Shown piece after piece: positions 6,936 to 19,269 of a stretch of 46,860 nt of DNA. Position 1 is the stretch's first letter, and each line of letters starts with the position of its first letter. The notes under the pieces are model-generated. The model was not told where the DNA came from. It was given only the letters and a program-made list of their open reading frames with translations, and ran no database searches. The stretch comes from an uncultured Metabacillus sp. (GTDB lineage Bacteria; Bacillota; Bacilli; Bacillales; Bacillaceae): the NCBI RefSeq assembly GCF_947503125.1, contig NZ_CANNCR010000033.1:1-46860 (forward strand), given 5' to 3'. The translations under genes and the position numbers were made by a program.

Positions 6936-7796
6936 TTAGTTCTTTTGAAGGATATTTCTCCGTTCAAGCAATTTGGTAAAGTGCTCCAAGCCTATACTTT
7001 TTGCTCCAATGCTGACAGCAGATGATTCTCCATAAAAACCATGAAAGTCAGATCCACCTGTTTGAATGAGATCCCACTTCTCAGCTAAAGCCCTTGCTTT
7101 CTTTTCCGCTTCTTTATCATGTAATGGATGCAAAACCTCGATTCCTTCTAACCCTGCCTGAACACAATCTTCAACTGCTGAAAAATTATCAAATTGTCCA
7201 GGATGTGCAAGAATTGGTAACCCGCCAGCTTCTCTAATGACACGAATCGCATCAAAGACATCGATGTACTCAATCGAAATGAAGGCTAGTCCCCGATCAT
7301 TAGGTGAATCTCCTCTTTTAAAGAGCTTTTTATATAAATCTCCATAGATCCGATCTGTATATCCTTTATTTAGTAAGGCATGCATAATATGTTGCTTATA
7401 CACCCCGGTTCCTTCTTTGCAAAACTCAAGAACCTCTTCCCATGTAATATCATATCCAGCCTCTTGAATGCGTGACACCATTTGCCATGATGCCTCATGC
7501 CTTTTTGCAACCAATGGGCTGCATAATTCATCAATCGATGCATGTCCAGGCGTAATATACATGCCTAAAATATGAGCTCTTCTCTTTCTCTCATAATCAT
7601 AGGCAGAAATTTCGATTCCTGGAATAATCTCTACTCCTAATGTCTCTCCGATTTCCATAGCTTGAAAAAGACCTTTCGTCGTGTCGTGATCGGTTATCGC
7701 TAAATGCTTGACACCATTTAATTTAGCAAGACGAATGACTTCCTCGATTGAATACGAATTATCAGAAATATTTGTATGACAATGTAAATCTATCAT
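6936..7796 (-). CDS. phnPP: PHP-family phosphoesterase of the C-P lyase operon (PhnPP type)
   Basis: This 286-residue PHP-domain enzyme has the metal ligands expected for the family: DLHCHTNISD at the N-terminus, TDHDT, GIEIS, AHPGQF and a terminal SDFHG. Some C-P lyase operons lack the beta-lactamase-like PhnP and carry such a PHP protein. One member, from Eggerthella lenta, hydrolyses cyclic phosphodiesters, including the ribose 1,2-cyclic phosphate 5-phosphate left by PhnJ. That role is inferred here from position as last gene of the phnG operon and the absence of PhnP. I start at the ATG at 7796, nine bases after GGAG; the upstream TTG at 7811 overlaps that ribosome binding site. Alternatively it could be a generic YciV/TrpH-type nuclease. 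Confidence 0.8.
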   Translation of the reverse strand: MIDLHCHTNISDNSYSIEEVIRLAKLNGVKHLAITDHDTTKGLFQAMEIGETLGVEIIPGIEISAYDYERKRRAHILGMYITPGHASIDELCSPLVAKRHEASWQMVSRIQEAGYDITWEEVLEFCKEGTGVYKQHIMHALLNKGYTDRIYGDLYKKLFKRGDSPNDRGLAFISIEYIDVFDAIRVIREAGGLPILAHPGQFDNFSAVEDCVQAGLEGIEVLHPLHDKEAEKKARALAEKWDLIQTGGSDFHGFYGESSAVSIGAKSIGLEHFTKLLERRNILQKN

Positions 7797-7821
7797 ATCG
7801 ATCAGCTCCAATTAGATGATT

Positions 7822-8535
7822 TTAAACGACGATCTTTTTATTTAAAGCACCATTTTCCAAATGGTAATGGGAATCTACGACAGCTTCCATAAATTCAAGA
7901 TCGTGAAAAATACCGATCATACTTGTTCCCGATTGTTTCAGCTGTTCAATCATTTCTTTTACAGACTGTTTCGAAGCATCATCTAATGAAGCAGTTGGTT
8001 CATCAAGCAATAACAGCTTTGGTTTCTTTACCATGGCTTGCGCTAAATTTAATCGAAGCTTTTCACCGCCGCTGAATGTTCTTGGAAAGGAGTTCCATAA
8101 AGATTCAGATAATTGAAAATGTGCGAGCATCTTTTTGGCTTGTTCTTCTGCTTCGGTTGTGCTTACGCCCATCTCTAAAATCGCATCCATGACAACCTCC
8201 AATGCTGTCACCCTTGGCATCACATTTAGAAATTGTGACACATAACCGATTTCTCTTTTTCTTAAGGCAATGATTTCACGTTCATTAGCTGTGACAAGAT
8301 CAATGGGGCCAAACTGGACTGAGTGGAAGATAAGTTCTCCTCCCGTAGGCAAATAGGTACGATAAATCGTTTTTAAGATCGTTGATTTTCCTGCACCGCT
8401 TTGTCCGGTAATCCCAATAAACTCTCCTTCACTCAAATCAAAGCTTATATTATTGCAGCCAACTACATGCTCCCCATGTAAGTAATGCATGACAAACGTT
8501 TTCACTAATCCCTTCATGCTTAAAAGCACAGCCAT
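7822..8535 (-). CDS. phnL: Phosphonate C-P lyase ATP-binding protein PhnL
   Basis: This 237-residue ABC-type ATPase belongs to the PhnL group, which in E. coli works with PhnGHI in transferring ribose triphosphate from ATP to the phosphonate. Visible motifs are Walker A (GQSGAGKS), the Q-loop YVSQFLNVMPRV, the ABC signature FSGGEKLRLNLAQA, Walker B LLLLDEPTASLD and the switch His in GIFHD. No transmembrane partner is needed. The start used is the ATG at 8535, seven bases after GGAGG; an in-frame TTG at 8553 lies upstream of that site. It sits 24 bp after the hexapeptide transferase in the same operon. Confidence 0.92.
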   Translation of the reverse strand: MAVLLSMKGLVKTFVMHYLHGEHVVGCNNISFDLSEGEFIGITGQSGAGKSTILKTIYRTYLPTGGELIFHSVQFGPIDLVTANEREIIALRKREIGYVSQFLNVMPRVTALEVVMDAILEMGVSTTEAEEQAKKMLAHFQLSESLWNSFPRTFSGGEKLRLNLAQAMVKKPKLLLLDEPTASLDDASKQSVKEMIEQLKQSGTSMIGIFHDLEFMEAVVDSHYHLENGALNKKIVV

Positions 8536-8559
8536 ATCTTTTCCTCCTCTCAAAAAAAC

Positions 8560-9168
8560 TTATGAGTATTTCTTAATAAATTCCTCTACATTTTTTAAAT
8601 CTTTATACCGTTCCTCGATCAGCTTACGATCCCAATTCCACCATTCAATTTCCATAAGCTTTTCCGCAATTTCATCTGAAAATCTATTTTTAATTGGTTT
8701 TGCTGGGACACCAACAGCTATTGTATAGGCAGGAACATCTTTCGTGACAACCGATCCCGCTCCAATGACCGCACCTGTTCCAATTGAGACTCCAGGCATG
8801 ATAATAGCGCCGTGACCAATCCACACATCATGCCCGATCGTAACATGATGCTCTCTGCGCCAATTAAAAAAATCATGATCATCCTCATCAGCTAATTGAT
8901 ATTGTGTGAGGCGATACGTAAGATGATGCTGTGTCACTCGCCACATCGGATGATTCACAGGGTTGATCCGAACATGTGAGGCGATCGAGCAAAACTTACC
9001 AATCGTTGCATAAATGATTTCGGCATCACCAGATGTGTAACTATAATCACCAAAATACGATTCTTCTATTTTTGTATTCGGACCAATTTCCGTCCACTCT
9101 CCTATGAAGCTATCTACGATTTGCGAGCTCGGATGGATGGTTGGCTCGTTTGCTAAACGTTTTTTCAT
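8560..9168 (-). CDS. Hexapeptide-repeat transferase of phosphonate operons
   Basis: The 202-residue protein is a left-handed beta-helix acetyltransferase of the type found in phn operons (family 'phosphonate metabolism protein, transferase hexapeptide repeat'). Isoleucine-patch repeats (IGHDVWIGHGAIIMPGVSIGTGAVIGAGSVVTKDV) span about residues 108-150. His residues in the PVNHPMWR segment and after it resemble the xenobiotic acetyltransferase active site. Its acceptor is unknown; a role like E. coli PhnO, N-acetylating aminoalkylphosphonates, is plausible but unproven and PhnO itself is an unrelated GNAT. It lies between phnM and phnL with short gaps. ATG 9168 follows AAAGGA. Confidence 0.8.
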   Translation of the reverse strand: MKKRLANEPTIHPSSQIVDSFIGEWTEIGPNTKIEESYFGDYSYTSGDAEIIYATIGKFCSIASHVRINPVNHPMWRVTQHHLTYRLTQYQLADEDDHDFFNWRREHHVTIGHDVWIGHGAIIMPGVSIGTGAVIGAGSVVTKDVPAYTIAVGVPAKPIKNRFSDEIAEKLMEIEWWNWDRKLIEERYKDLKNVEEFIKKYS

Positions 9169-9184
9169 AGAGTAAACGTCCTTT

Positions 9185-10378
9185 CTACACCCTTCCTGTT
9201 ACAGAAAGCGGCATTTGGTAATTCATTTGACAAACAACCTTTCCATTTACAAGTACAGTTTGTAATACAGGGCGTGCCTTTTCCTCTCTCACAATTAAAA
9301 GATCTGCTTTTTTGCCAACTTCGATTGATCCGACTTCATGATCAATATGCAATGCTTTTGCAGGATTTAATGAGACCATATTCATTGATTTATTAATCGG
9401 AGTACCTTGTTTATAAAGTTTAAAGGCAGCATGCAGCAAGGAGGACGGATAATAATCTGAGCACAAAATATCAACAACCTCATGTTCTAATGCTTCCATT
9501 GCCGATAGATTATTACTATGAGATTTGCCTAATAAAGCATTCGGAGCACCCATCACAACAAACAGTCCCATTTCTTTTGCTTTCTTGGCTACATGAAGTT
9601 CGATTGGAAATTCACTAATAGAAGCATTCCAGTCTTTTACAAGCTCGAGTTTTTCTAATGTGTCATCATCATGGGACGCGATTGGAATATGATGTTCATG
9701 AGCTAAATCTGCTAATTCCTTTAGAACATACTCCTCTAATTTTTCTTGTTTTTTACTTTGCTCAATGATTTCCATTGCTTCTTCTTCAGAAAAGCGACGG
9801 TGTTCCACTAACAGCTTTTTATGAATTTCAATGTCTCTAAACTGTCCTTGACCAGGGGTATGGTCCATAAAGGAAAGCTGATTGATTTTCTGTTGTTTAA
9901 GTAACTCCTTAACTGGATTAACTGCACTTATATTTGTAATCTCGTATCGCAAATGAGTTTTGTGGCGAATAAGGTAGGCACCTTGAGCCAAGCGGTTAAT
10001 TTCTTCAATAACAGATAGAACGGTTTTATTTTGTCTAACAAATTTTTTTGCATTTTCTTCAAGTAAAGAGAGAGAATGATAGATGGTTGTAATACCTTCA
10101 CCAACTAGTTTTTTCTCTAATTCATAGAAGGATACTTCAATAGGAAACGTACTGCTCGGACGAGGCTCGAGCTCCATTTCAATGGCATCACTATGTGAAT
10201 CAACAAGACCAGGAAGCACCCATGCCCCTTCGGCATCTATATCACCTGGTTGAATATTCTCTGGTTTTCCTTTTAAAATTTGTGAAATTTGATCATCTTC
10301 TATGATAATGGTTCCGTTATAAATAACCTCATCAGGTGTGACAATATTGGCAGAATGAATCTTTAGCATGTTCATCAT
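9185..10378 (-). CDS. phnM: Ribose 1-methylphosphonate 5-triphosphate diphosphatase PhnM
   Basis: This 397-residue amidohydrolase-superfamily enzyme removes pyrophosphate from ribose 1-methylphosphonate 5-triphosphate, making the 5-phosphate that PhnJ cleaves. The metal-site segment LVDSHSDAIEMELEPRP replaces the usual HxH, as is normal for PhnM, and further ligands appear in ASHDDDT and in ILCSDYYPSS. The C-terminus has the familiar VGSIEVGKKADLLIV strand. I start at the ATG at 10378, six bases after GAGGTG; the frame is open upstream to 10417 with no better signal. Only 19 bp separate it from phnK. Confidence 0.94.
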   Translation of the reverse strand: MMNMLKIHSANIVTPDEVIYNGTIIIEDDQISQILKGKPENIQPGDIDAEGAWVLPGLVDSHSDAIEMELEPRPSSTFPIEVSFYELEKKLVGEGITTIYHSLSLLEENAKKFVRQNKTVLSVIEEINRLAQGAYLIRHKTHLRYEITNISAVNPVKELLKQQKINQLSFMDHTPGQGQFRDIEIHKKLLVEHRRFSEEEAMEIIEQSKKQEKLEEYVLKELADLAHEHHIPIASHDDDTLEKLELVKDWNASISEFPIELHVAKKAKEMGLFVVMGAPNALLGKSHSNNLSAMEALEHEVVDILCSDYYPSSLLHAAFKLYKQGTPINKSMNMVSLNPAKALHIDHEVGSIEVGKKADLLIVREEKARPVLQTVLVNGKVVCQMNYQMPLSVTGRV

Positions 10379-10397
10379 CGTTTTCACCTCATCATTT

Positions 10398-11255
10398 TTA
10401 TAAAAGCGAATGGACAAGCTGCTGTGTATAAGGGTGCTGCGGATCCTCTAATATTTGATCTGTAAGGCCTCTTTCAACAACACGCCCATGACGCATCACC
10501 ATCGTACGATCAGCGAGCATTCTGATCACACCTAAGTCATGGGATACAACAATCATCGCTACACCTAAATCACGTTGAATTTTTCGAATTAAATCTAATA
10601 CTCTAGCTTGAACAGAAAGATCAAGTCCGGTCGTTACTTCATCAAGCAAAAGAATCGGCGGATTATTCGCCAACGCTTTCGAGATTTGAACCCTTTGCTG
10701 CATTCCGCCGCTAAAATTTTTGGGAAGCTCATCCATTCTGCTGATCGGAATTTCCACATGCTCTAATAACTGTTTTGCCCGGTCTCGTATCGTGCCGACA
10801 TGAAGAGTACCTGATGCAATTAGTTTTTCAGCGATATTGCCACCACTTGAAAAAGACATTTTTAACCCTAAGTAGGGGTTTTGATAAACCATGCCCATCA
10901 TATAATTTCGGATGTATCGCTTTTGTTGAGCAGATTCTTCAAAAATGTTTGCCTCTCCATTTTTATAGGAAGAAATGGTAGCGCGGCCCGATGAAATCCC
11001 ATCATCAAAATATAAGCTCTTCACTAATGAGCTTTTTCCAGATCCGCTCTCACCTACAATTCCTAAAATTTCCCCTTTATACAGCTTTAAGTTAACATCA
11101 ATACACGCCCAAACACTCCCGCAATTCGGGCAGCGGTTATCTTTTGCTTGAAGCATTTCAGGTGTTTGGCAATGGGAACACCCTTTTCCATATCTTTTAT
11201 TTAAGCCATGCACTTCAAGCTCAGGTCCTTCTATTTGCATCGAATGTGTAATCAA
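10398..11255 (-). CDS. phnK: C-P lyase ATPase PhnK with a Cys4 insertion
   Basis: This 285-residue ABC-type ATPase docks on the C-P lyase core in E. coli and is needed for phosphonate breakdown. Walker A GESGSGKS is at about 68-75, the signature FSGGMQQRVQISKAL follows, then Walker B ILLLDEVTTGLD and the switch motif VSHDLGV. Unlike E. coli PhnK (252 residues), it has an insertion ahead of Walker A with C26-x2-C29 and C42-x2-C45, plus C51, looking like a zinc ribbon. The TTG start at 11255 overlaps the phnJ stop codon (TTGA) and sits seven bases after AGGAAAGAGGG; an ATG at 11240 is the alternative. Confidence 0.92.
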   Translation of the reverse strand: MITHSMQIEGPELEVHGLNKRYGKGCSHCQTPEMLQAKDNRCPNCGSVWACIDVNLKLYKGEILGIVGESGSGKSSLVKSLYFDDGISSGRATISSYKNGEANIFEESAQQKRYIRNYMMGMVYQNPYLGLKMSFSSGGNIAEKLIASGTLHVGTIRDRAKQLLEHVEIPISRMDELPKNFSGGMQQRVQISKALANNPPILLLDEVTTGLDLSVQARVLDLIRKIQRDLGVAMIVVSHDLGVIRMLADRTMVMRHGRVVERGLTDQILEDPQHPYTQQLVHSLL

Positions 11256-12112
11256 ACGACATACCCTCTTTCCTTTTGCTGTGTTTGACAGTATCCGGTG
11301 TCTGAGCATTGGTATCTTTTCTCTCCGGTTTCCGCATCATAAATCTCATCAAGAAAAACATCTTGGCTGCCGCAACAATGACAGGATAATCCATCAAATT
11401 TTTCTACCTCAAATGGGTAATCATCAAATTCAAGCGGCTTTACATCTGTAAATGGCGGAATCGCATAAATCTTCTTTTCTCTGCCTGCACCAAATAAAAA
11501 CAAACCTTTTGCTTGATGCAATTTCAATAAATCATAACGCGGGATGGGGCTAGGGTTAAAAATATATCGTCCGTTCACCATGCTCGGATAATCAGCACCA
11601 ATCGTAATTTCACCCCACCTTACGATATCCTCATATAATCTCAGCCAAATGCTGCTGTAATCCATTTCGGCATGGAGTCTTTTTGTATCCTTTTCCTTTG
11701 CTTCTACTCTTCTTAACGGTTCTGGTAATGGAACCTGTAAAACCAATATTTGATCCTCTCTCAAAGGAACCTCCGGGATTCGGTGTCTCGTTTGAATAAG
11801 AGAAGCCTCTTCAGAATTTTCTGTCGTTCCTATATTCGAACAAGCTTGTACTAATCGTTTAATACTGACGGCATTTACGCTGTCATCATGACCCTGGTCA
11901 ATGACTTTTAACGTATCCTTTTCACCTATAAGTGAAAGGGTGATTTGTAATCCTCCTGTCCCCCAGCCCCTTCCGATCGGCATCTCTCTTGATGCAAACG
12001 GGACTTGGTAGCCAGGAATGGCGACAGCCTTCAAAACGGATCTTCTTATTTCCTTTTTAGATCCCTCATCTAAAAAGGCGTAATTATAAGTGTGGGCAAC
12101 CTCCATTTTCAT
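11252..12112 (-). CDS. phnJ: Alpha-D-ribose 1-methylphosphonate 5-phosphate C-P lyase PhnJ
   Basis: PhnJ is the radical-SAM enzyme that cleaves the carbon-phosphorus bond, giving an alkane and a cyclic ribose phosphate. The 286-residue protein has the unusual C-terminal cluster motif with Cys244, Cys247, Cys269 and Cys275; the spacings of 3, 22 and 6 equal those of E. coli PhnJ (Cys241/244/266/272). The glycyl-radical site is probably Gly34 in AIPGYQVPF. One extra cysteine, Cys246, lies between the first two ligands. I start at the ATG at 12112, nine bases after GGAGG. The gene lies between phnI and phnK and overlaps phnK by four bases. Confidence 0.97.
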   Translation of the reverse strand: MKMEVAHTYNYAFLDEGSKKEIRRSVLKAVAIPGYQVPFASREMPIGRGWGTGGLQITLSLIGEKDTLKVIDQGHDDSVNAVSIKRLVQACSNIGTTENSEEASLIQTRHRIPEVPLREDQILVLQVPLPEPLRRVEAKEKDTKRLHAEMDYSSIWLRLYEDIVRWGEITIGADYPSMVNGRYIFNPSPIPRYDLLKLHQAKGLFLFGAGREKKIYAIPPFTDVKPLEFDDYPFEVEKFDGLSCHCCGSQDVFLDEIYDAETGEKRYQCSDTGYCQTQQKERGYVV

Positions 12113-12151
12113 TTCCCTTTTCCTCCTTTGCATTTGGTCATACAAATCATC

Positions 12152-13273
12152 TTAAAATGGACTAAACGTCACAGACTGTTCTTGCAAGGTATCATTTTTC
12201 TTCTTATTTTTTGCTTCTCTAATCCGATCAAGCTTTGATTGGAATGTAATATAATGCGGCAATTTTAAATGTGAAACAAACCCATGTGCTTCAACACTAT
12301 CTATGTGCAAAAGAACAAATTCCTCATCCTGTGTAGGAGACGTTCCCTCTGTTTCTAAGCTTCTTTCTAAAATCGCCATGGCAATGGCCTTCACCTCGTT
12401 TTGTCCAAATGTTAAGCCATATCCTAGTAAAAATTCCACATTTCCTTCTTCGGTTTCAGCAAAAGAATTGATCGTTTCTACCTCGGTTACCATCACCTCA
12501 CCAATGTAAATGGAGTCTTCTTCATCACCATATGGATAAGGGATATACACTTCCGTATAGCCGACTCTTAACTCACCTATTGTCGGGTGAACAACACCAT
12601 ATCCTCTCATACTGCTATAGGCAAAAGAGGTCATCGCCCCTGTTTCACCTCTTGAGAGAATTTGCAGGCGTGCAGAACGAGACGCTGGAAAAATAAGCTT
12701 GTCCCTTGTTACATCAAAGGGCTCAATCTCTTCACACTGTTTGTTACCGATCAATCCTTCTTTTTCCAACAAATCGGCCACTTTTCCAAAAGTTGCGGCC
12801 TCATGTTCATCAAGCTTTTCATTTAATGCAAAATCAGCTAAAAATTGCTTTATCACGTCTGTTTCTTCTTGGTGCAATTCGAAATTTAACAGTCTATGCG
12901 TATAATCATAGGTTGGTCCTAATAATTGACCTCCGGGTATATCTTTAAATGAGGAAGATATTTTTCGTATGACTCTCATCTTGCTAGGTTCTACTGTTCG
13001 AGAGTAATAATTTCTCGGTAATGTTGACCGATAGGCTCTTAGTAAAAAGGCTGCTTCTGCCGGATCACCTTCAGCCTGTTTCAACGCTAAAGCAGCATAT
13101 TCTGGTGCATATAGCCCTCCTTCTCCCATAACCCGGTCAATCAAAAGCCGGAGCTGTGATTCGATATCCTTTACCTTCAGAACTTGATCAGCATTTTTTA
13201 AACTATAGTATTTGGTCAGAGTATCAGCCTCTTCAATTGCCTTTTGTCCCCCTGTTACTGCAACATAACCCAT
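12152..13273 (-). CDS. phnI: C-P lyase complex subunit PhnI
   Basis: PhnI (373 residues; about 354 in E. coli) is the nucleosidase subunit that, with PhnG, PhnH and PhnL, exchanges adenine of ATP for the phosphonate to form ribose 1-methylphosphonate 5-triphosphate. The N-terminus GYVAVTGGQKAIEEAD and the internal segments RVMGEGGLYAPEYAALAL and TGAMTSFAYSSMRGYG are typical. The ATG follows the phnH stop codon directly, with GAGGG seven bases upstream, so translation is coupled. The Lys-rich C-terminal tail is longer than in the E. coli protein. Confidence 0.95.
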   Translation of the reverse strand: MGYVAVTGGQKAIEEADTLTKYYSLKNADQVLKVKDIESQLRLLIDRVMGEGGLYAPEYAALALKQAEGDPAEAAFLLRAYRSTLPRNYYSRTVEPSKMRVIRKISSSFKDIPGGQLLGPTYDYTHRLLNFELHQEETDVIKQFLADFALNEKLDEHEAATFGKVADLLEKEGLIGNKQCEEIEPFDVTRDKLIFPASRSARLQILSRGETGAMTSFAYSSMRGYGVVHPTIGELRVGYTEVYIPYPYGDEEDSIYIGEVMVTEVETINSFAETEEGNVEFLLGYGLTFGQNEVKAIAMAILERSLETEGTSPTQDEEFVLLHIDSVEAHGFVSHLKLPHYITFQSKLDRIREAKNKKKNDTLQEQSVTFSPF

Positions 13274-13903
13274 CTACAATCCCTCACTTTCTACTAATGT
13301 CGTTCTAGGTAGTGCCATGATGTCACCACAATTCGTTGTCAGAATAAAATCAATTCCTAAAGGGAATTCACTTGTCGCAAGGTTTCGTTCTTCGATCCAC
13401 TTGGAAGGAAGTCCCTTAATGTAGACAACGTTACTTGTTTCAATACCAGGCCCTCTCATTGTAAGTTTTAAAGAGGAAGGTACTTTGCTAACCGTTATTT
13501 CGTCGACACAAAGTACGACAGTGGCACTATCATGCGGATCTGATAGCGTTCCGTTCTTTAGCTGTTGAATACATTCCGAAATGTTATCCACTTCTTCTGG
13601 ATGATTGATAAAAAGATAATCGGCAGCATTAATTGGGCTGCCTTTACTATATGTTTTCCATTCCAATGACCGTGTGATTATTTCGGAATGTTCCGCTAGA
13701 ATATGGAAACTCACTTCCCGATCAATTAGCGTATAAGCGATTCCTTGGAGCGACTTGGAAAATCCTTCCATTTCCTGATTAGTAGTAATCTCTTCAGCGA
13801 TCTTTTCAATTTTCCCCGGTCTAGCCATACAGTCTAGTAATTTACGAAAAATACGCTGTGTGTCATGTACCATATCAAATGCAGCAAGATTAGCTTTTTG
13901 CAT
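13274..13903 (-). CDS. phnH: C-P lyase complex subunit PhnH
   Basis: PhnH (209 residues) is a core subunit of the PhnGHIJ complex with a fold related to PLP-dependent enzymes but without the cofactor lysine. The N-terminal stretch FDMVHDTQRIFRKLLDCMARPG is a clear family signature, and GPGIETSNVVYIKGLP and NFPLGID-like EFPLGIDF lie toward the end. The ATG at 13903 has GGAGG six bases upstream. It overlaps the phnG end by 14 bp and abuts phnI. A role in substrate binding or complex scaffolding is known from E. coli; nothing unusual is seen here. Confidence 0.95.
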   Translation of the reverse strand: MQKANLAAFDMVHDTQRIFRKLLDCMARPGKIEKIAEEITTNQEMEGFSKSLQGIAYTLIDREVSFHILAEHSEIITRSLEWKTYSKGSPINAADYLFINHPEEVDNISECIQQLKNGTLSDPHDSATVVLCVDEITVSKVPSSLKLTMRGPGIETSNVVYIKGLPSKWIEERNLATSEFPLGIDFILTTNCGDIMALPRTTLVESEGL

Positions 13904-14327
13904 TGTAATCCTCCATCGTATCAAATTGAACTTTTGTTTTGGCAATTCGTGCTGCTTCTTCTTTTACTTTCTGCTGGATATATGCTTCTTCGAATTCCAA
14001 TTCGATCAGTAATTGATTTGTGATTGGAAGCTTCGCATTCATCGCCGCATCGATTACTGCGATCTGATAGGATCTTACCGGATCATCGCCCATGACTATC
14101 CCTATTCCAGAATGCTGATCAAGAGAAACTGAACATTCTGTTACGAGAACCTCTCCCATATAGAATGGTTGCTTTGAGACAGAATCCCGTGTTTTAAGCA
14201 TGACAAGGCCAGTTGAAGGAGCACGATCAACGCTGACTATCGATGCTTTTTCAATGGCATCTGTCCATTTAGCAAGAAACTCTGGTCTGCCTTCAACGAG
14301 AATTTTCATCAACCTCGATTTTTTCAT
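13890..14327 (-). CDS. phnG: C-P lyase complex subunit PhnG
   Basis: PhnG (145 residues; about 150 in E. coli) is the first subunit of the C-P lyase core and the first gene of this operon. Recognisable segments are PSTGLVMLKTRDSV, FYMGEVLVTECSV and GIGIVMGDDPVRSYQIAVIDA, the last being the most conserved in the family. I start at the ATG at 14327, nine bases after GGGGAGG. The leader is about 50 bases from the predicted control element at 14382-14420, which should drive the whole phnG-H-I-J-K-M-transferase-L-PP operon. Confidence 0.94.
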   Translation of the reverse strand: MKKSRLMKILVEGRPEFLAKWTDAIEKASIVSVDRAPSTGLVMLKTRDSVSKQPFYMGEVLVTECSVSLDQHSGIGIVMGDDPVRSYQIAVIDAAMNAKLPITNQLLIELEFEEAYIQQKVKEEAARIAKTKVQFDTMEDYNAKS

Positions 14328-14380
14328 TTTGGATAACCTCCCCATCGTATTGTTTCTTCAATCTTTGTGATACATAAAAG

Positions 14381-14400
14381 GTAACTTATTGATAAGTTAC
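14381..14400. promoter_or_regulatory. 20-bp perfect inverted repeat, likely GntR operator of phnG
   Basis: GTAACTTATTGATAAGTTAC has two perfect 9-bp arms around a 2-bp centre. A near copy (18856-18873) lies in front of the GntR-family gene at identical distance to the conserved Pho-box-like hexamers. This makes it the best candidate binding site for that regulator. It would overlap the minus 10 region of the phnG promoter. Confidence 0.7.
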
Positions 14401-14403
14401 AAT

Positions 14404-14442
14404 GGTTAAGCTATTGTAAATAACATATGAAGATTTATTAAA
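14404..14442 (-). promoter_or_regulatory. Pho-box-like direct repeats of the phnG promoter
   Basis: On the minus strand TTTACA (14420-14415) and TTAACC (14409-14404) are 11 bp apart. Weaker hexamers TTCATA and TTTAAT continue at the same pitch upstream. The PhoP consensus in Bacillus is TT(A/C/T)A(C/T)A repeated every 11 bp. The two best hexamers and their spacing are conserved before the GntR gene. Confidence 0.55.
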
Positions 14443-14481
14443 GATGCGATCCTTGCGCTAATTCTCTTTTAGCTTTATAGA

Positions 14482-14513
14482 CAAAATTAAAAGCACAAGA
14501 GTTTCCTGTGCTT
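14482..14513 (-). terminator. Terminator of the phnF-D-C-E1-E2 operon
   Basis: AAGCACA (14491-14497) and TGTGCTT (14507-14513) form the stem core, and the minus-strand product runs into TTTTAATTTT. It lies just past the phnE2 stop and separates the transport operon from the phnG promoter. Confidence 0.75.
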
Positions 14514-14529
14514 AAAAAGAATAATAAAG

Positions 14530-15384
14530 TTATATTTTCACTCGTAATCTTGATTTAATTCTTGTTGCAATCATTTCCAGCACAATAGCAAAGAATAAGA
14601 TGAAGAATGTAATTGTCCCTACTTCACGTAAATCCAGATAGAAGCTGCTGGCCATAAACATATCAAAGCCAATCCCGCCTGCACCTGCAGCTGCTCCCAT
14701 TGCGACCGCAACACCAAAGTTGATTTCAAATCGCAAAAAGGTCCACGAAACGAGATAGGTTAAAGAAGATGGAATAACAGCTTGAAAAACGATCTGCCAC
14801 CAGCTTGCACCGCTTCCCCGTAATGCCTCAATGACCCCCTCATCCAACTCTTCAAACGATTCTGAATATGCTTTTATTAAATATCCAACAGAATGAAAGG
14901 TCATTCCAATAACAGCTGCTACACTCCCTAACCCTGCAGCAACGGCAAAAATTAATACCCACAATACCGTTGGAACAGCTCTTATAAACGCAACAACTCC
15001 TTTGATTATATTGGATACCTTTGCTGACGATAAATTTTGCGCAGCAAAAAGCGCTAGAAAGAGTGCAATGAGTGCTCCTATTAAGGTAGTTAGTAGCGCC
15101 AAACCAATTGTAACCAATACTTGATAGGTGGCATCAGTAAATGAAAAATGTACGAAATGAGGTTCGAGAAACATCACTTTTAAATTAGTAAGTGTAGAAA
15201 CTACCCCTTCAAATAGATTGATATCCTTATAGTCAAATGTAAAAAACCCATATATTGTAAGGATAGCTAGAATCACAATTGTTAATCTTATTGTCAAAAC
15301 TGCCTTACTTAATGGTTTAATTTTCATATTTTGAAAAGGATTATTGTGTGAAGGCTCTTCTTTGCTAATGTCAGCAACTCTCAC
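14530..15384 (-). CDS. phnE2: Phosphonate ABC transporter permease PhnE2
   Basis: This 284-residue membrane permease has about six transmembrane segments after a cytoplasmic N-terminus of roughly 30 residues. The cytoplasmic EAA loop, EALRGSGASWWQIVFQAVIPSS, is the contact site for the ATPase PhnC. It pairs with PhnE1 as a heterodimer, a frequent arrangement in Firmicutes where E. coli uses one permease. The GTG start shares its first G with the phnE1 stop codon (TAGTG), with GGGTGA upstream. It is the last gene of the transporter operon and is followed by a hairpin terminator. Confidence 0.9.
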   Translation of the reverse strand: MRVADISKEEPSHNNPFQNMKIKPLSKAVLTIRLTIVILAILTIYGFFTFDYKDINLFEGVVSTLTNLKVMFLEPHFVHFSFTDATYQVLVTIGLALLTTLIGALIALFLALFAAQNLSSAKVSNIIKGVVAFIRAVPTVLWVLIFAVAAGLGSVAAVIGMTFHSVGYLIKAYSESFEELDEGVIEALRGSGASWWQIVFQAVIPSSLTYLVSWTFLRFEINFGVAVAMGAAAGAGGIGFDMFMASSFYLDLREVGTITFFILFFAIVLEMIATRIKSRLRVKI

Positions 15385-16166
15385 TATAAAATCACCCTTC
15401 TTACATAGTTTGAAATGAATTCAATGGTTAGAATGGCAGCAACAATTGTCAGCACCACTAAGCTTGCTGCATTATAATTCAAGCTTTTATAAAACAAGTC
15501 AAAGGAAAATCCGATACCTGTGCCAGTCAGGATTCCGACTAAAGTGGCACTGCGAATATTCGTTTCGATCATAAATAACACCCAGCTGATGATCTGGGGA
15601 ATGCTTGAAGGAATAACAGAATGAATAATAATGGATGTATAGCTGGCACCTGTTGCCGTTAATGCCTCAACAGAATGAACACCAACTTCATCAATAGTCT
15701 CCATAAAGGCTCTTGTTAAAAATCCAAACGATACAAAAAACAGGGCAAAATATCCAGTTAATGAGCTTTGTCCAAAGGAAAAGAGCAAGATCATTGCCCA
15801 TGCCGCTACATCAATATTACGGAATAATGTCGCAATCCCGCGACTAATTGTACTTAAAAAACCGTTCATTTTTGTTGTCTTGGATCCGAAGATTGCAAAT
15901 ACAATAGCAAAAACAGATGCAACAGATGCCGCTGCAATTGAGATTAATACAGTTTCCTGCAATTTTTCTAATATACTTGGGAGCTTCTCAAGTGATTCCT
16001 GTGTTGGATAAAAATTAGAGAACCCCCACATAATCGCATTAGGAATGGAATGTAAACCCTTTATGACATCAAATTCAGTGATAAGGATGGATCCATATGC
16101 AACAATTATGATTAAGGAAAGGACAAGAACCGACTGTGCTCTTTTCTTTAAAAAGAACTTATCCAA
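15384..16166 (-). CDS. phnE1: Phosphonate ABC transporter permease PhnE1
   Basis: The 260-residue permease has about six membrane segments and the EAA loop VEALTATGASYTSIIIHSVIPSS, which fits PhnE/PtxC-type permeases. It should form the channel with PhnE2 and be driven by PhnC. The TTG start at 16166 lies inside the phnC 3' end, overlapping it by eight bases, with AGGAGG upstream within the phnC reading frame. The tight overlaps on both sides point to coupled translation in equal amounts. Confidence 0.9.
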   Translation of the reverse strand: MDKFFLKKRAQSVLVLSLIIIVAYGSILITEFDVIKGLHSIPNAIMWGFSNFYPTQESLEKLPSILEKLQETVLISIAAASVASVFAIVFAIFGSKTTKMNGFLSTISRGIATLFRNIDVAAWAMILLFSFGQSSLTGYFALFFVSFGFLTRAFMETIDEVGVHSVEALTATGASYTSIIIHSVIPSSIPQIISWVLFMIETNIRSATLVGILTGTGIGFSFDLFYKSLNYNAASLVVLTIVAAILTIEFISNYVRRVIL

Positions 16167-16947
16167 CGTTTTTTCCTCCTAGATTCATCATTAATTCACC
16201 TGCTTCAGATCCATAAATTTTGTGTATCGCTTCATTTGTTATGTCTTTTGGAGATCCATTATATACCACTTCCCCCTTACATACACCGATGATTCGATCA
16301 GAATACGTAAGGGCAACGTCAACTTGATGTAAATTTACAAGAACGGTGATACCCATTGTTGTGGATATATTTCGTAAGTGATCCATAATGACTTTTGATG
16401 AATTAGGGTCTAATGATGCGATAGGTTCATCACATAAAAGCATTTTCGGATCTTGTATGAGGGCCCGGGCAATTCCAACACGCTGTTTTTGTCCCCCGCT
16501 TAATTGATCACATCTTTTATAAACCTGATCTTCTAACCCTAACGTTTTTAATAAAGAAAAAGCCTGTATTTTTTCGGCTTCACTATAGAGACCGAGTGCA
16601 CCGCCAATAACTGATTTGTATCCAAGTCTTCCATGCAGGACATTCTCAATAACGCTCAGCCTGTTTACGAGATTATAATGTTGAAAAATCATGCCAATCC
16701 TTGTTCTTAATTTCCTAAGCTCCCGCTTTTTTAAAGCCATCACATTGACATCATCAAAAATGATATCCCCTCCGTTAGCATCAATCATGCGATTAATGCA
16801 GCGAAGGAGAGTCGACTTCCCTGCTCCAGACGGACCAATAATGGAAACAAACTCTCCTTCTTTAACAGAGAAGCTAACATCTGATAACGCAAATGCATCT
16901 TGACCATATTGTTTTGATACATTTTTTACTTCAAGTAACGTTTTCAT
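16159..16947 (-). CDS. phnC: Phosphonate ABC transporter ATP-binding protein PhnC
   Basis: This 262-residue ATPase powers phosphonate import. Walker A is GPSGAGKS (about residues 38-45), the Q-loop is MIFQHYNLV, the signature LSGGQKQRVGIARAL, Walker B MLLCDEPIASLD and the switch region VNLHQVD. The sequence VNLHQVDVAL is typical of PhnC rather than of sugar or amino-acid transporters. The ATG at 16947 has AAAGGAG ahead. It lies 27 bp after phnD in the order D-C-E1-E2. Confidence 0.95.
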   Translation of the reverse strand: MKTLLEVKNVSKQYGQDAFALSDVSFSVKEGEFVSIIGPSGAGKSTLLRCINRMIDANGGDIIFDDVNVMALKKRELRKLRTRIGMIFQHYNLVNRLSVIENVLHGRLGYKSVIGGALGLYSEAEKIQAFSLLKTLGLEDQVYKRCDQLSGGQKQRVGIARALIQDPKMLLCDEPIASLDPNSSKVIMDHLRNISTTMGITVLVNLHQVDVALTYSDRIIGVCKGEVVYNGSPKDITNEAIHKIYGSEAGELMMNLGGKNVG

Positions 16948-16974
16948 TGTTAACTCCTTTTTTATTTTTTCGAA

Positions 16975-18009
16975 TTACTTAGATAATTCTCTAATCGGAT
17001 CGAACCAAGCATCTTCAACTTCTAAGAAACGCTCTTTATCCGTTTTCTTAAACAATCCAGTAGCATCTTCCGGGACAAAAATTTTGTCATTATTCGCTAG
17101 TTCATCAGAAGTAAAGGCATCAATTAGAGCTTGTCTATCTTCTTCACTAACCGTATCTGTATTAATCGCAAACGGTGCATTTAATACTGGTGTAACGGAG
17201 ATCAATTTAAACTCTTCACCAGGAACCGTATTGAATGGTTCAGCTGCATCAGCTTTTACTTTATAAGTTGCGCCTGGTGTATTCTCTTCACCATCTGCCA
17301 ATTCTACATAATTGCTTACACATGTATCACAAAAAGCAGCGACATCTGCTTTGTCAGTCAATAGGTTAACTGCAGAGCCCTGATGCGACCCTCCGTAAAG
17401 AACTTCACTAAAGAATTTTCCTCCTTCAAGAAGATCTTCTGGAGTGAGATCCTTGTACTCTTCTTTTTCACTAAAGTGAGAGACGATTCCATCTGAAGGT
17501 ACTTTAAACCCTGAAGTGGAACTATTTGATACAAAAGAAAACTTTTTATCTACGATGTTATCGATTGAAAACTCGTCACCATTCTTATATGCTTCTTCAT
17601 TTCCTTTTTTAACTGCGAGCCAGCTGTGATATACAGCATCATCTAATGTTCCTGAAGGACCGCTTGGCACAACTAAAGGCTGAACCTTATCATTTTTTGC
17701 ATTTGCCTCAATATATCCTTGTGCACCCATGAACGCTAAATCGGCATTACCTGAAGCCAGTGATTCAATGGCAATAATATAATCAGTCGTTGTTTTATGT
17801 TCCACTATCTTTCCAGTTGCTTCTTCAATGACCTTTCCTATTTCATCACGCGCATCTTTCAGATCTGCTCCTGACTCATTAGGGTACCAAGCAATCGTAA
17901 GTGTATCATCATCACTTGAACCGCTTGCTTGTGTCCCGCCACCAGCTGAACAAGCTGCAGAAATTACTGTCATCATTAGAGCCATCACTAATAATAATGC
18001 CTTTTTCAT
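16975..18009 (-). CDS. phnD: Phosphonate-binding lipoprotein PhnD
   Basis: The 344-residue protein is the extracellular phosphonate-binding component. A signal peptide ends in the lipobox ISAAC with Cys20 as the lipid anchor. The mature part has the PhnD/PtxB-type features AWYPNESGADLKDARDEIGKVIEEATG and a segment VSNSSTSGFKVPSDGI that corresponds to the phosphonate-binding Ser/Thr loop of the family. The ATG at 18009 follows TAGGAGG. It lies 79 bp after the GntR gene; a 6-bp stem (TGGAAG/CTTCCA) sits in that gap but lacks a T-run, so I do not call it a terminator. Confidence 0.94.
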   Translation of the reverse strand: MKKALLLVMALMMTVISAACSAGGGTQASGSSDDDTLTIAWYPNESGADLKDARDEIGKVIEEATGKIVEHKTTTDYIIAIESLASGNADLAFMGAQGYIEANAKNDKVQPLVVPSGPSGTLDDAVYHSWLAVKKGNEEAYKNGDEFSIDNIVDKKFSFVSNSSTSGFKVPSDGIVSHFSEKEEYKDLTPEDLLEGGKFFSEVLYGGSHQGSAVNLLTDKADVAAFCDTCVSNYVELADGEENTPGATYKVKADAAEPFNTVPGEEFKLISVTPVLNAPFAINTDTVSEEDRQALIDAFTSDELANNDKIFVPEDATGLFKKTDKERFLEVEDAWFDPIRELSK

Positions 18010-18088
18010 TTTCCATTCCTCCTAAAAAGTAAATGTTTTTTTATAATCATCCTGGAAGTGTTAGCGATTCTTCCAATGTTGATTCAAC

Positions 18089-18811
18089 TTAAAATTCCAC
18101 CAGGCATTTATGCATATCGCCTCTTATTCGTGCAACACTGTATTCAATCGGGTTGCCGCTTGGATGATTCATAATGCTTTCCATTTGAATAATTGGCACA
18201 CTTTCAGGGATTTCGAGAACTTTTGCATCCTTTAGGATCGGCAATAAAGCTTGGAATATAGATTTGGATCTTACAGGACGTAATTGATAATAATCTGACA
18301 AAATCCGGTAAAGTGATTTGAAATTTTGTAAATATTGTTCCAGTTGCGGGACTTCTTCCTCAGGCATGACCGTAGTGGTAATAGAAATAGGCTGCCCTTC
18401 TATAAATCTAAGAATTTCTAAACGGTAGATTGTTTGATTTTCTGATAGAAAGAGATTCTTCTGTTCAACATCACTTGGCAATCCTTTTTCCCAAGTTAAT
18501 AATCTACTCTGATACACAAGACCCAAATTTTCCATATTATCTGTAAAACGAGTCCTTGATGACAACACATACTGAATAGGCTTTTGAACACTATTTACAT
18601 AGCAGCCCTTTCCTTGAAATGGAGTGATCCAGCCTAAATTTGTCAGCCTTGCCAATGCCTGTCTGATAACATGGCGATTGACATTAAATTGCTGACAAAG
18701 CTCATTTTCAGAAGGAATCTTCTGATTTTCCCGAAAGACACCAGATTGGATTTTTTGAATGAGGTACTCTGAAATTTCCAAATGGCACGGCATGTCCTCT
18801 TTTAATCTCAT
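18089..18811 (-). CDS. phnF: GntR/HutC-family regulator of phosphonate genes (PhnF-like)
   Basis: This 240-residue repressor-like protein has an N-terminal GntR winged helix (IQSGVFRENQKIPSENELCQQFNVNRHVIRQALARL, about 20-58) and a C-terminal UTRA ligand-binding domain ending in IEYSVARIRGDMHKCLVEF. It heads the transporter operon. PhnF-type proteins in other bacteria repress phn genes and respond to phosphate or phosphonate metabolites. The frame is open to 18853, but that GTG lies right beside the predicted operator and lacks a ribosome binding site. I therefore choose the ATG at 18811, although its AAGGAG is rather far upstream (12 bases). Confidence 0.85.
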   Translation of the reverse strand: MRLKEDMPCHLEISEYLIQKIQSGVFRENQKIPSENELCQQFNVNRHVIRQALARLTNLGWITPFQGKGCYVNSVQKPIQYVLSSRTRFTDNMENLGLVYQSRLLTWEKGLPSDVEQKNLFLSENQTIYRLEILRFIEGQPISITTTVMPEEEVPQLEQYLQNFKSLYRILSDYYQLRPVRSKSIFQALLPILKDAKVLEIPESVPIIQMESIMNHPSGNPIEYSVARIRGDMHKCLVEF

Positions 18812-18855
18812 CGTCTTGTTTGACTCCTTATTCGTTTCTTTCGACAATTCCACTC

Positions 18856-18894
18856 TAACTTATCGACAAGTTTCTTAGGTTAAGCTAGAGTAAA
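18856..18894 (-). promoter_or_regulatory. Operator plus Pho-box-like hexamers before the GntR gene
   Basis: This 39-bp block matches 14382-14420 at 31 of 39 positions without gaps. It contains an imperfect inverted repeat (18856-18873) and, on the minus strand, TTTACT (18894-18889) and TTAACC (18883-18878) at an 11-bp pitch. The four-base gap between the two parts is the same in both copies. Autoregulation plus PhoP control is the inference. Confidence 0.7.
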
Positions 18895-19269
18895 AGTTGC
18901 ATGAAATTTCCTTCCTTTTGTTAATTTATTTTTAAGAAATGATCACTCTTGAAAAAAACCCCTTTACATTTTTACAACCGCTTCAAATTCACACGGAAAA
19001 TTGACGTATTTTTTACAAAACAAGCATTTCTCCCTATAACCATTCTCCTATAAACGGCCATGTATATTTATGTGTCATTCAGAAATAATGATGTAATGTT
19101 CAGAGATATGTTAAATATTTCTTATCGTTTCCTCAGCACCCTCACGTTTCACGGAAATTTTCAAATAATCTTTTCCAGATGCACCTGATAATTCAAAATT
19201 AACGTCTTTGATTCAAGTTTTTTAATGGATGTGTGGTAAGATACGATAGAGTAGATAAATAAATCTAAT
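18895..19269. other. Non-coding spacer between the phn and nsrR genes
   Basis: No convincing gene is seen. An open stretch of 34 codons without a start (19111-19212, minus strand) reads acidic and lysine-rich and might be a gene remnant. The nsrR promoter must lie near the right end. Confidence 0.4.

Follow-up and report, generated by a model that had tools for sequence, protein, structure and literature searches.

Two phn promoters of a Metabacillus contig as candidate Pho promoters with a built-in operator for a linked GntR/HutC regulator

Why should two phn operons on the same strand carry nearly the same short sequence before their first genes? The window analyzed here is the whole 46,860-nucleotide stretch of contig NZ_CANNCR010000033.1 (assembly GCF_947503125.1) of an uncultured Metabacillus sp., a single contig of a 5.44-Mb genome. 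On its minus strand, reading leftward, lie the transport unit phnF(GntR)-phnD-phnC-phnE-phnE (18811 to 14530) and the carbon-phosphorus (C-P) lyase unit phnG-H-I-J-K-M-(hexapeptide transferase)-L (14327 to 7822). A first-pass annotation had proposed that both are preceded by one 39-bp element joining a GntR-type operator to PhoP-like hexamers. The two blocks (Table 1) do match at 31 of 39 positions without gaps. Dinucleotide-shuffled intergenic pairs (n = 1000) gave a best 39-bp match of 23.2 on average and 28 at most, which rules out chance similarity. Both blocks contain GGTTAA-N5-(T/A)GTAAA, and the third hexamer, TTCAT(A/G), keeps the 11-bp pitch, as had been described. The palindrome before phnG is less regular than claimed. 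Instead of a perfect 20-bp inverted repeat, an inverted-repeat search found 9-nt arms (14381-14389 and 14392-14400) around a 2-nt centre, self-complementary at 18 of 20 positions, and three bases (14401-14403) rather than four separate it from GGTTAA.

The answer is probably that both promoters act as AND-NOT gates, activated by phosphorylated PhoP (PhoP~P) and blocked to RNA polymerase by the linked GntR/HutC protein. Each would be a Pho promoter carrying a built-in lock. PhoP~P would bind hexamers of 11-bp pitch between about -33 and -60, counted from the presumed start, and bring RNA polymerase to a weak -10 that has no good -35 at the usual spacing. In the ordinary Pho promoters of the genus, those of pstS and phoA, the array is separated from the -10 by a fourth hexamer and a 9-bp spacer; in the phn promoters that slot would be taken by a 16-bp operator whose last base is the first of the -10. 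The regulator, product of the leading gene of one operon, would bind this operator and exclude the polymerase until a phosphonate or a breakdown product bound its UTRA domain and released it. Synthesis of transport proteins and C-P lyase would require both phosphate scarcity and the inducer, and the regulator would also curb its own production. Repressor and polymerase are expected to be mutually exclusive because the operator fills the gap from array to -10 and overlaps the first -10 base.

The conservation of the operator, AACTTR-N4-YAAGTT, was evaluated by counting it as present at 10 or more of 12 positions. Loci, cited here by L numbers and genomes by G numbers, were gathered by PhnJ or by the regulator (27 loci; 11 of 100, 11 of 80 and 33 of 397 genomes), and 49 non-duplicate loci from Bacillales and kin were compared, L013 and L023 being dropped as duplicates of L098 and L101. 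The operator precedes phnF, phnG or the first gene of the operon in 45 of the 49, and all 45 have a phnF-like gene. These include L132, whose element is identical to that of L130, and L134, where the module precedes a PHP-domain gene heading the operon. In 43 loci it lies before phnF or phnG, giving 53 distinct promoters after removal of one identical duplicate from 54 rows. It is absent from L017, L018 and L019, and L021 has a half-site in register. Outside Bacillales and kin, none of 13 loci (L022 and L024-L035, some incomplete) reached 10 of 12 before the phn genes tried. The promoters were divided by the identity of their regulators to that of the window into clade A (at least 40%; 32 promoters) and clade B (25-32%; 21 promoters, all before phnG). 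The first-pass annotation had asked whether close relatives that keep both operons lose the element, and mostly they do not: among 13 clade A loci, window included, in which phnF-phnD-phnC-phnE forms a unit apart from phnG, the operator stands at both promoters in 10 and before phnG alone in L010, L020 and L064.

A motif search with the whole module found it at up to three mismatches in 12 places in 11 of 397 genomes of the order, with none for the reversed control. Eleven of the places are at phn loci, and the module occurs in 10 of the 33 genomes with PhnJ (E <= 1e-100) vs. 1 of the 364 others. The twelfth place (G243, three mismatches, in a genome without such a PhnJ match) is probably due to chance. 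Most clade B modules fall outside the pattern because it was drawn on clade A. In the host genome ACTTRTCRATAAGT occurs without mismatch solely at the two blocks. At up to two mismatches there were 94 forward and 103 reverse matches, not above the reversed-pattern control (145 and 100). Six one-mismatch sites were examined, out of ten listed outside the two blocks, and three of the six lie inside open reading frames (ORFs) of at least 100 residues; on these counts a wider operator regulon in the host was rejected.

The PhoP box is given as TT(T/A/C)ACA in a passage of PMC6327384, and PHO boxes are described as 11-nt repeat units in an excerpt of PMC4415409. Both window promoters have three positive-scoring hexamers of this kind at 11-bp pitch, the arrangement of Bacillus Pho promoters, as scored with a matrix built solely from pstS/phoA hexamers (28 hexamers, 7 arrays). 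Counted from the operator start, the mean matrix score in clade A peaks at -22 (5.9), -11 (2.6), +6 (1.2) and -33 (0.7), the mean being -4.7, and the best local hexamer lies at -11 in 30 of 32 promoters and at -22 likewise in 30 of 32. The clade B hexamers are shifted by one base, to -12 (16 of 21 promoters) and -23 (19 of 21). The host genome encodes a PhoPR-like pair, a PnpS over the cut-off with a response regulator immediately upstream, and its phoA and two pstS genes are preceded by such hexamer arrays. The phn hexamers match the pstS/phoA arrays of the same genome and genus in pitch and in distance to the -10, which favors the proposal that PhoP would activate from upstream. Where a phnD unit lies apart from phnF, the best three-hexamer score exceeds the random 95% level (11.2) in L014, L015 and L017 and does not in L012, L098, L099, L100 and L019; with three units above and five not, a transporter under Pho control alone is no more than partly supported.

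The position of the -10 ties operator and array together. All 53 phn promoters have TANNNT at +15, counted from the operator start, the first T alone counting toward the operator score, and of the offsets tried +15 gives the hexamer closest to TATAAT in both clades (means 3.94 and 3.95). Counting from hexamer 4, all 27 scored pstS/phoA promoters have TA...T at +15, and phoA reads TATAAT itself. These are phoA and 26 pstS promoters, left from 31 PstS matches of which one had no locus, L157 had no usable ATG, and L170, L161 and L174 were skipped (array score <21). The distance from hexamers to -10 is that of pstS/phoA exactly in clade A and 1 bp longer in clade B. Because the +15 register is common to both kinds of promoter, the operator fills the slot of the fourth PhoP hexamer and the spacer to the -10. 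Its last base is the first of the -10-like hexamer in all 53, which favors the suggestion that the GntR protein would repress over the -10 region. A conventional sigma-A promoter with the usual -35 distance was considered and rejected, since TTGACA is poorly matched there (means 0.2-1.0 of 6 in clade A and 0.6-2.2 of 6 in clade B) and a pattern scan found 2 promoter-like sites vs. 1.3 expected, of which one overlies hexamer 2 on the coding strand.

The window regulator scores over cut-off for PF00392 (67.6 bits) and PF07702 (90.2 bits), an N-terminal GntR winged helix-turn-helix (HTH) with a C-terminal UTRA domain, the domain pair of the HutC subfamily. Its best family is TIGR02325, PhnF, at 142.7 bits, below the curated cut-off of 156.8 for a PhnF equivalog. 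Two clade B regulators score best to another HutC model and that of L017 to PhnF, all below cut-offs. In regulator trees clade B is separate with strong support. A, B and C, which are labels of the analysis, group together against 11 paralogues with support of 80/76, so that a common phn ancestor of A and B is neither shown nor rejected; in the first tree one row labelled C, the second regulator of L064, fell inside A. L009 was left out of comparison and trees because a stop lies upstream of its likely start, the first GntR hit of L104 was left out of the trees, and the second tree was thinned to 39 of 64 rows. L064 (10458-12058) has two divergent GntR/HutC genes, one heading phnG and one phnDCE, with an operator at the phnG promoter only. 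G018 (L067), of the window's own genus, carries a clade B C-P lyase system (PhnJ 62%) rather than clade A, possibly a result of the entire operon having been exchanged horizontally.

Several observations weigh against dual control of this design. Taken by itself the operator score is weak, since 10 of 12 is also attained by 23 of 245 shuffled upstreams, and more weight was therefore placed on the register. L010, L020 and L064 lack the operator before phnF, and L065 and L105 lack hexamers in register. The phnF promoter of L020 has, by eye, two Pho hexamers and a -10 in register without a recognizable operator, and as a natural variant it would agree with the mechanism. The third hexamer is irregular in relatives: of the 32 clade A promoters 14 have it best at -33 and another 14 at -32, and in clade B it is best at -34 in 10 of 21. 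The pstS set comes from one genus and is closely related, the phoD array fell below the threshold (21) and was left out of the scored promoters, and the pstS -10 is ambiguous in that TCTAAT 3 bp further on (+18) scores equal or better in many, 5 of 6 in many. A promoter-like pair scoring 9/12 lies over hexamer 2 on the coding strand (14441-14413), a find within chance expectation, and the operator includes TTGACA-like bases, with on average 4.8 of 6 matches at +3 (clade B) and 4.3 at +6 (clade A). The remaining points concern the regulator. An excerpt of PMC4494728 gives the HutC consensus operator centre as GTMTAKAC (GT-N4-AC), naming exceptions as well; the phn sites lack it and read GT-N2-AY or GG-N2-AC. 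Clade B regulators are 27-46% identical to that of the window over the HTH and 15-24% over the UTRA domain, yet adjoin near-identical operators, and the regulators of L017 and L019 belong to the sister group of clade A, yet have no operator.

The possibility was considered that the palindrome is bound by an unlinked regulator and not by the adjoining GntR protein. The last three points would all fit this, the linked regulators of the two clades being far apart beside a nearly constant site. However, a phnF-like gene is present at every one of the 45 operator loci, and the operator is missing from L018, in which a search found no phnF. Furthermore, ACTTGT-N2-AYAAGT has the general form of a GntR-type palindrome, and the regulators labelled A, B and C may form one group. 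An unlinked regulator is thus unlikely, and the adjoining protein is the preferred candidate.

WalR-type boxes resemble PhoP boxes, and the hexamers might be read by WalR/YycF, or by WalR together with PhoP, leaving the operator part unchanged. Upstream sites like TTAACA-N5-TTTACA at pstS and phnD of S. epidermidis are listed as predicted YycF sites in a part of PMC5405149. Against this, pitch and -10 distance equal those of the pstS/phoA arrays of the same genome and genus, and the genes concerned are phosphorus genes; we give WalR only a slight chance compared with PhoP. It is equally improbable that half of the operator doubles as a fourth PhoP hexamer, which would make PhoP~P and repressor rivals for one set of bases. 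AACTTR does begin exactly one 11-bp pitch past hexamer 3 in clade A, but as a Pho hexamer this half has a poor score, averaging -8.1 in clade A and -8.8 in clade B, and clade B has a pitch of 12 at this step. The real promoter could also lie elsewhere, the TTGACA-like bases in the operator supplying a -35-like element for a start further downstream and TANNNT at +15 being operator flank only. The partner -10 expected for the +3 site (17 bp on, at +26) matches TATAAT on average at 2.6 of 6 vs. 3.9 at +15, and +15 is the register of pstS and phoA, so that this arrangement, too, has little to recommend it over the +15 promoter. That the blocks are alike merely through recent copying of one from the other, which their identity of 31/39 and the small contrast in the full set of 10 genomes having both sites (31.1 and 31.6 of 39 at the same promoter, 29.4 across the two) might suggest, is very improbable, since in four species of the genus elements at the same promoter average 36.2 and 37.2 of 39 (minimum 34) vs. 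30.0 between the two promoters, so that these have been separate for longer than the species.

With the linked repressor and PhoP retained as the preferred pair, a bolder proposal may be offered tentatively, as it has perhaps a modest chance of being right. The operator may be older than the regulators now adjoining it, the cis module having outlived the replacement or extreme divergence of its regulator, and the repressor would compete directly with the polymerase recruited by PhoP~P. This is suggested because the distant regulators of clades A and B would use nearly the same palindrome, with its register to the Pho array and the -10 kept across Bacillales.

The features of the locus are collected in Table 1. 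Two promoters are expected because a terminator-like hairpin separates the units. ATG 18811 was judged to be the phnF start by sequence and by a TAG shortly upstream in L009. The closest named relative found is Bacillus sp. SA1-12, with a PhnJ identity of 96%. The hexapeptide transferase of the lyase unit (8560-9168) belongs to the phn family TIGR03308 (292.9 bits, over cut-off). PHP-type cyclic phosphodiesterases occur in the phn operons of other bacteria; a PHP-domain gene comes after phnL in the window (6936-7811), and a PHP-like gene, judged by sequence, heads a phn operon directly behind the module in G155 (L117, 584-1438). In L062 (8047-8846) the second phnE was matched as two overlapping pieces in different frames, suggesting a frameshift or an assembly error.

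Table 1. Features of the phn locus in window coordinates, with position weight matrix (PWM) scores of the Pho-like hexamers.
Feature	Position	Strand	Remarks
39-bp module before phnG	14382..14420	-	coding strand TTTACA-N5-TTAACC-N5-AACTTATCAATAAGTTA
Pho-like hexamer 1 (phnG), TTCATA	14426..14431	-	PWM 4.6
Pho-like hexamer 2 (phnG), TTTACA	14415..14420	-	PWM 7.0
Pho-like hexamer 3 (phnG), TTAACC	14404..14409	-	PWM 3.1
Predicted operator (phnG), AACTTATCAATAAGTT	14383..14398	-	occupies place of fourth Pho hexamer and spacer
-10-like hexamer (phnG), TACCTT	14378..14383	-	3/6 to TATAAT; overlaps last operator base
39-bp module before GntR gene	18856..18894	-	coding strand TTTACT-N5-TTAACC-N5-AACTTGTCGATAAGTTA
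Pho-like hexamer 1 (GntR gene), TTCATG	18900..18905	-	PWM 2.3
Pho-like hexamer 2 (GntR gene), TTTACT	18889..18894	-	PWM 2.8
Pho-like hexamer 3 (GntR gene), TTAACC	18878..18883	-	PWM 3.1
Predicted operator (GntR gene), AACTTGTCGATAAGTT	18857..18872	-	by operator score and register
-10-like hexamer (GntR gene), TAGAGT	18852..18857	-	by register
phnF-like GntR/HutC regulator	18089..18811	-	GntR and UTRA domains; likely start ATG 18811, listed ORF from GTG 18853
phnD, phosphonate-binding protein	16975..18009	-	PF12974; NCBIfam phosphonate-transport models below cut-off
phnC, ATPase	16159..16947	-	TIGR02315 over cut-off
Two phnE-type permeases	14530..16166	-	named by gene order and conservation in relatives
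Terminator-like hairpin after phnE2, between the units	14491..14513	-	1 found vs. shuffle mean 0.0
phnG, first gene of C-P lyase unit	13890..14327	-	TIGR03293 over cut-off; likely start ATG 14327, listed ORF from 14345
phnH-I-J-K, phnM, hexapeptide transferase, phnL	7822..13945	-	I, J, M and transferase by family profile; H, K, L by order

Dual Pho/PhnF control is already known from Mycobacterium smegmatis; what is added here is the Bacillales architecture, the operator and its reach across C-P lyase loci. No earlier description of this module was found in open-licence PubMed Central text, a search outside which subscription papers and RegPrecise lie. The model would describe, base by base, how Gram-positive bacteria join a local substrate signal to a global signal of starvation, and it would predict when Bacillales make C-P lyase, which frees phosphate from methylphosphonate and other phosphonates. 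The natural variants, with the operator kept or lost and with the 1-bp shift of clade B, are ready test cases.

The control of phnDCE and phnF by PhnF and SenX3-RegX3 in M. smegmatis was reportedly worked out by Gebhard and Cook in 2008 and Gebhard et al. in 2014. The PhnF operator there is TGGTATAGACCA, to which the window operators, AACTTATCAATAAGTT and AACTTGTCGATAAGTT, do not conform. According to passages of PMC5309233 and PMC7866108, SenX3-RegX3 raises phnDCE and phnF, and PhnF represses phnDCE. The window resembles this system, as far as those passages describe it, in having a phn-linked GntR repressor gene and a phosphate-starvation two-component system; in M. smegmatis both act on phn genes and the repressor gene is also induced. 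In both, moreover, the linked repressor gene is itself preceded by a control element, the module here standing before phnF of phnF-phnDCE. In M. smegmatis the repressor has two binding sites, both in a divergent promoter region, and the genes under its control encode a phosphate transporter, whereas the window operator, AACTTR-N4-YAAGTT, is in fixed register with a Pho array and a -10 and would govern C-P lyase too. Bacillus PhoP promoters such as those of pstS and phoA share with the phn promoters the TT(T/A/C)ACA hexamers, the 11-bp pitch and a -10-like hexamer, +15 from hexamer 4; they differ in that an operator replaces the fourth hexamer and spacer at phn. The phnCDEFGHIJKLMNOP cluster of E. 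coli, in excerpts of PMC7866108 and PMC10574752, likewise has a Pho box upstream and a PhnF homologue inside, but it is one operon with one promoter, whereas the window has two units with matched composite promoters.

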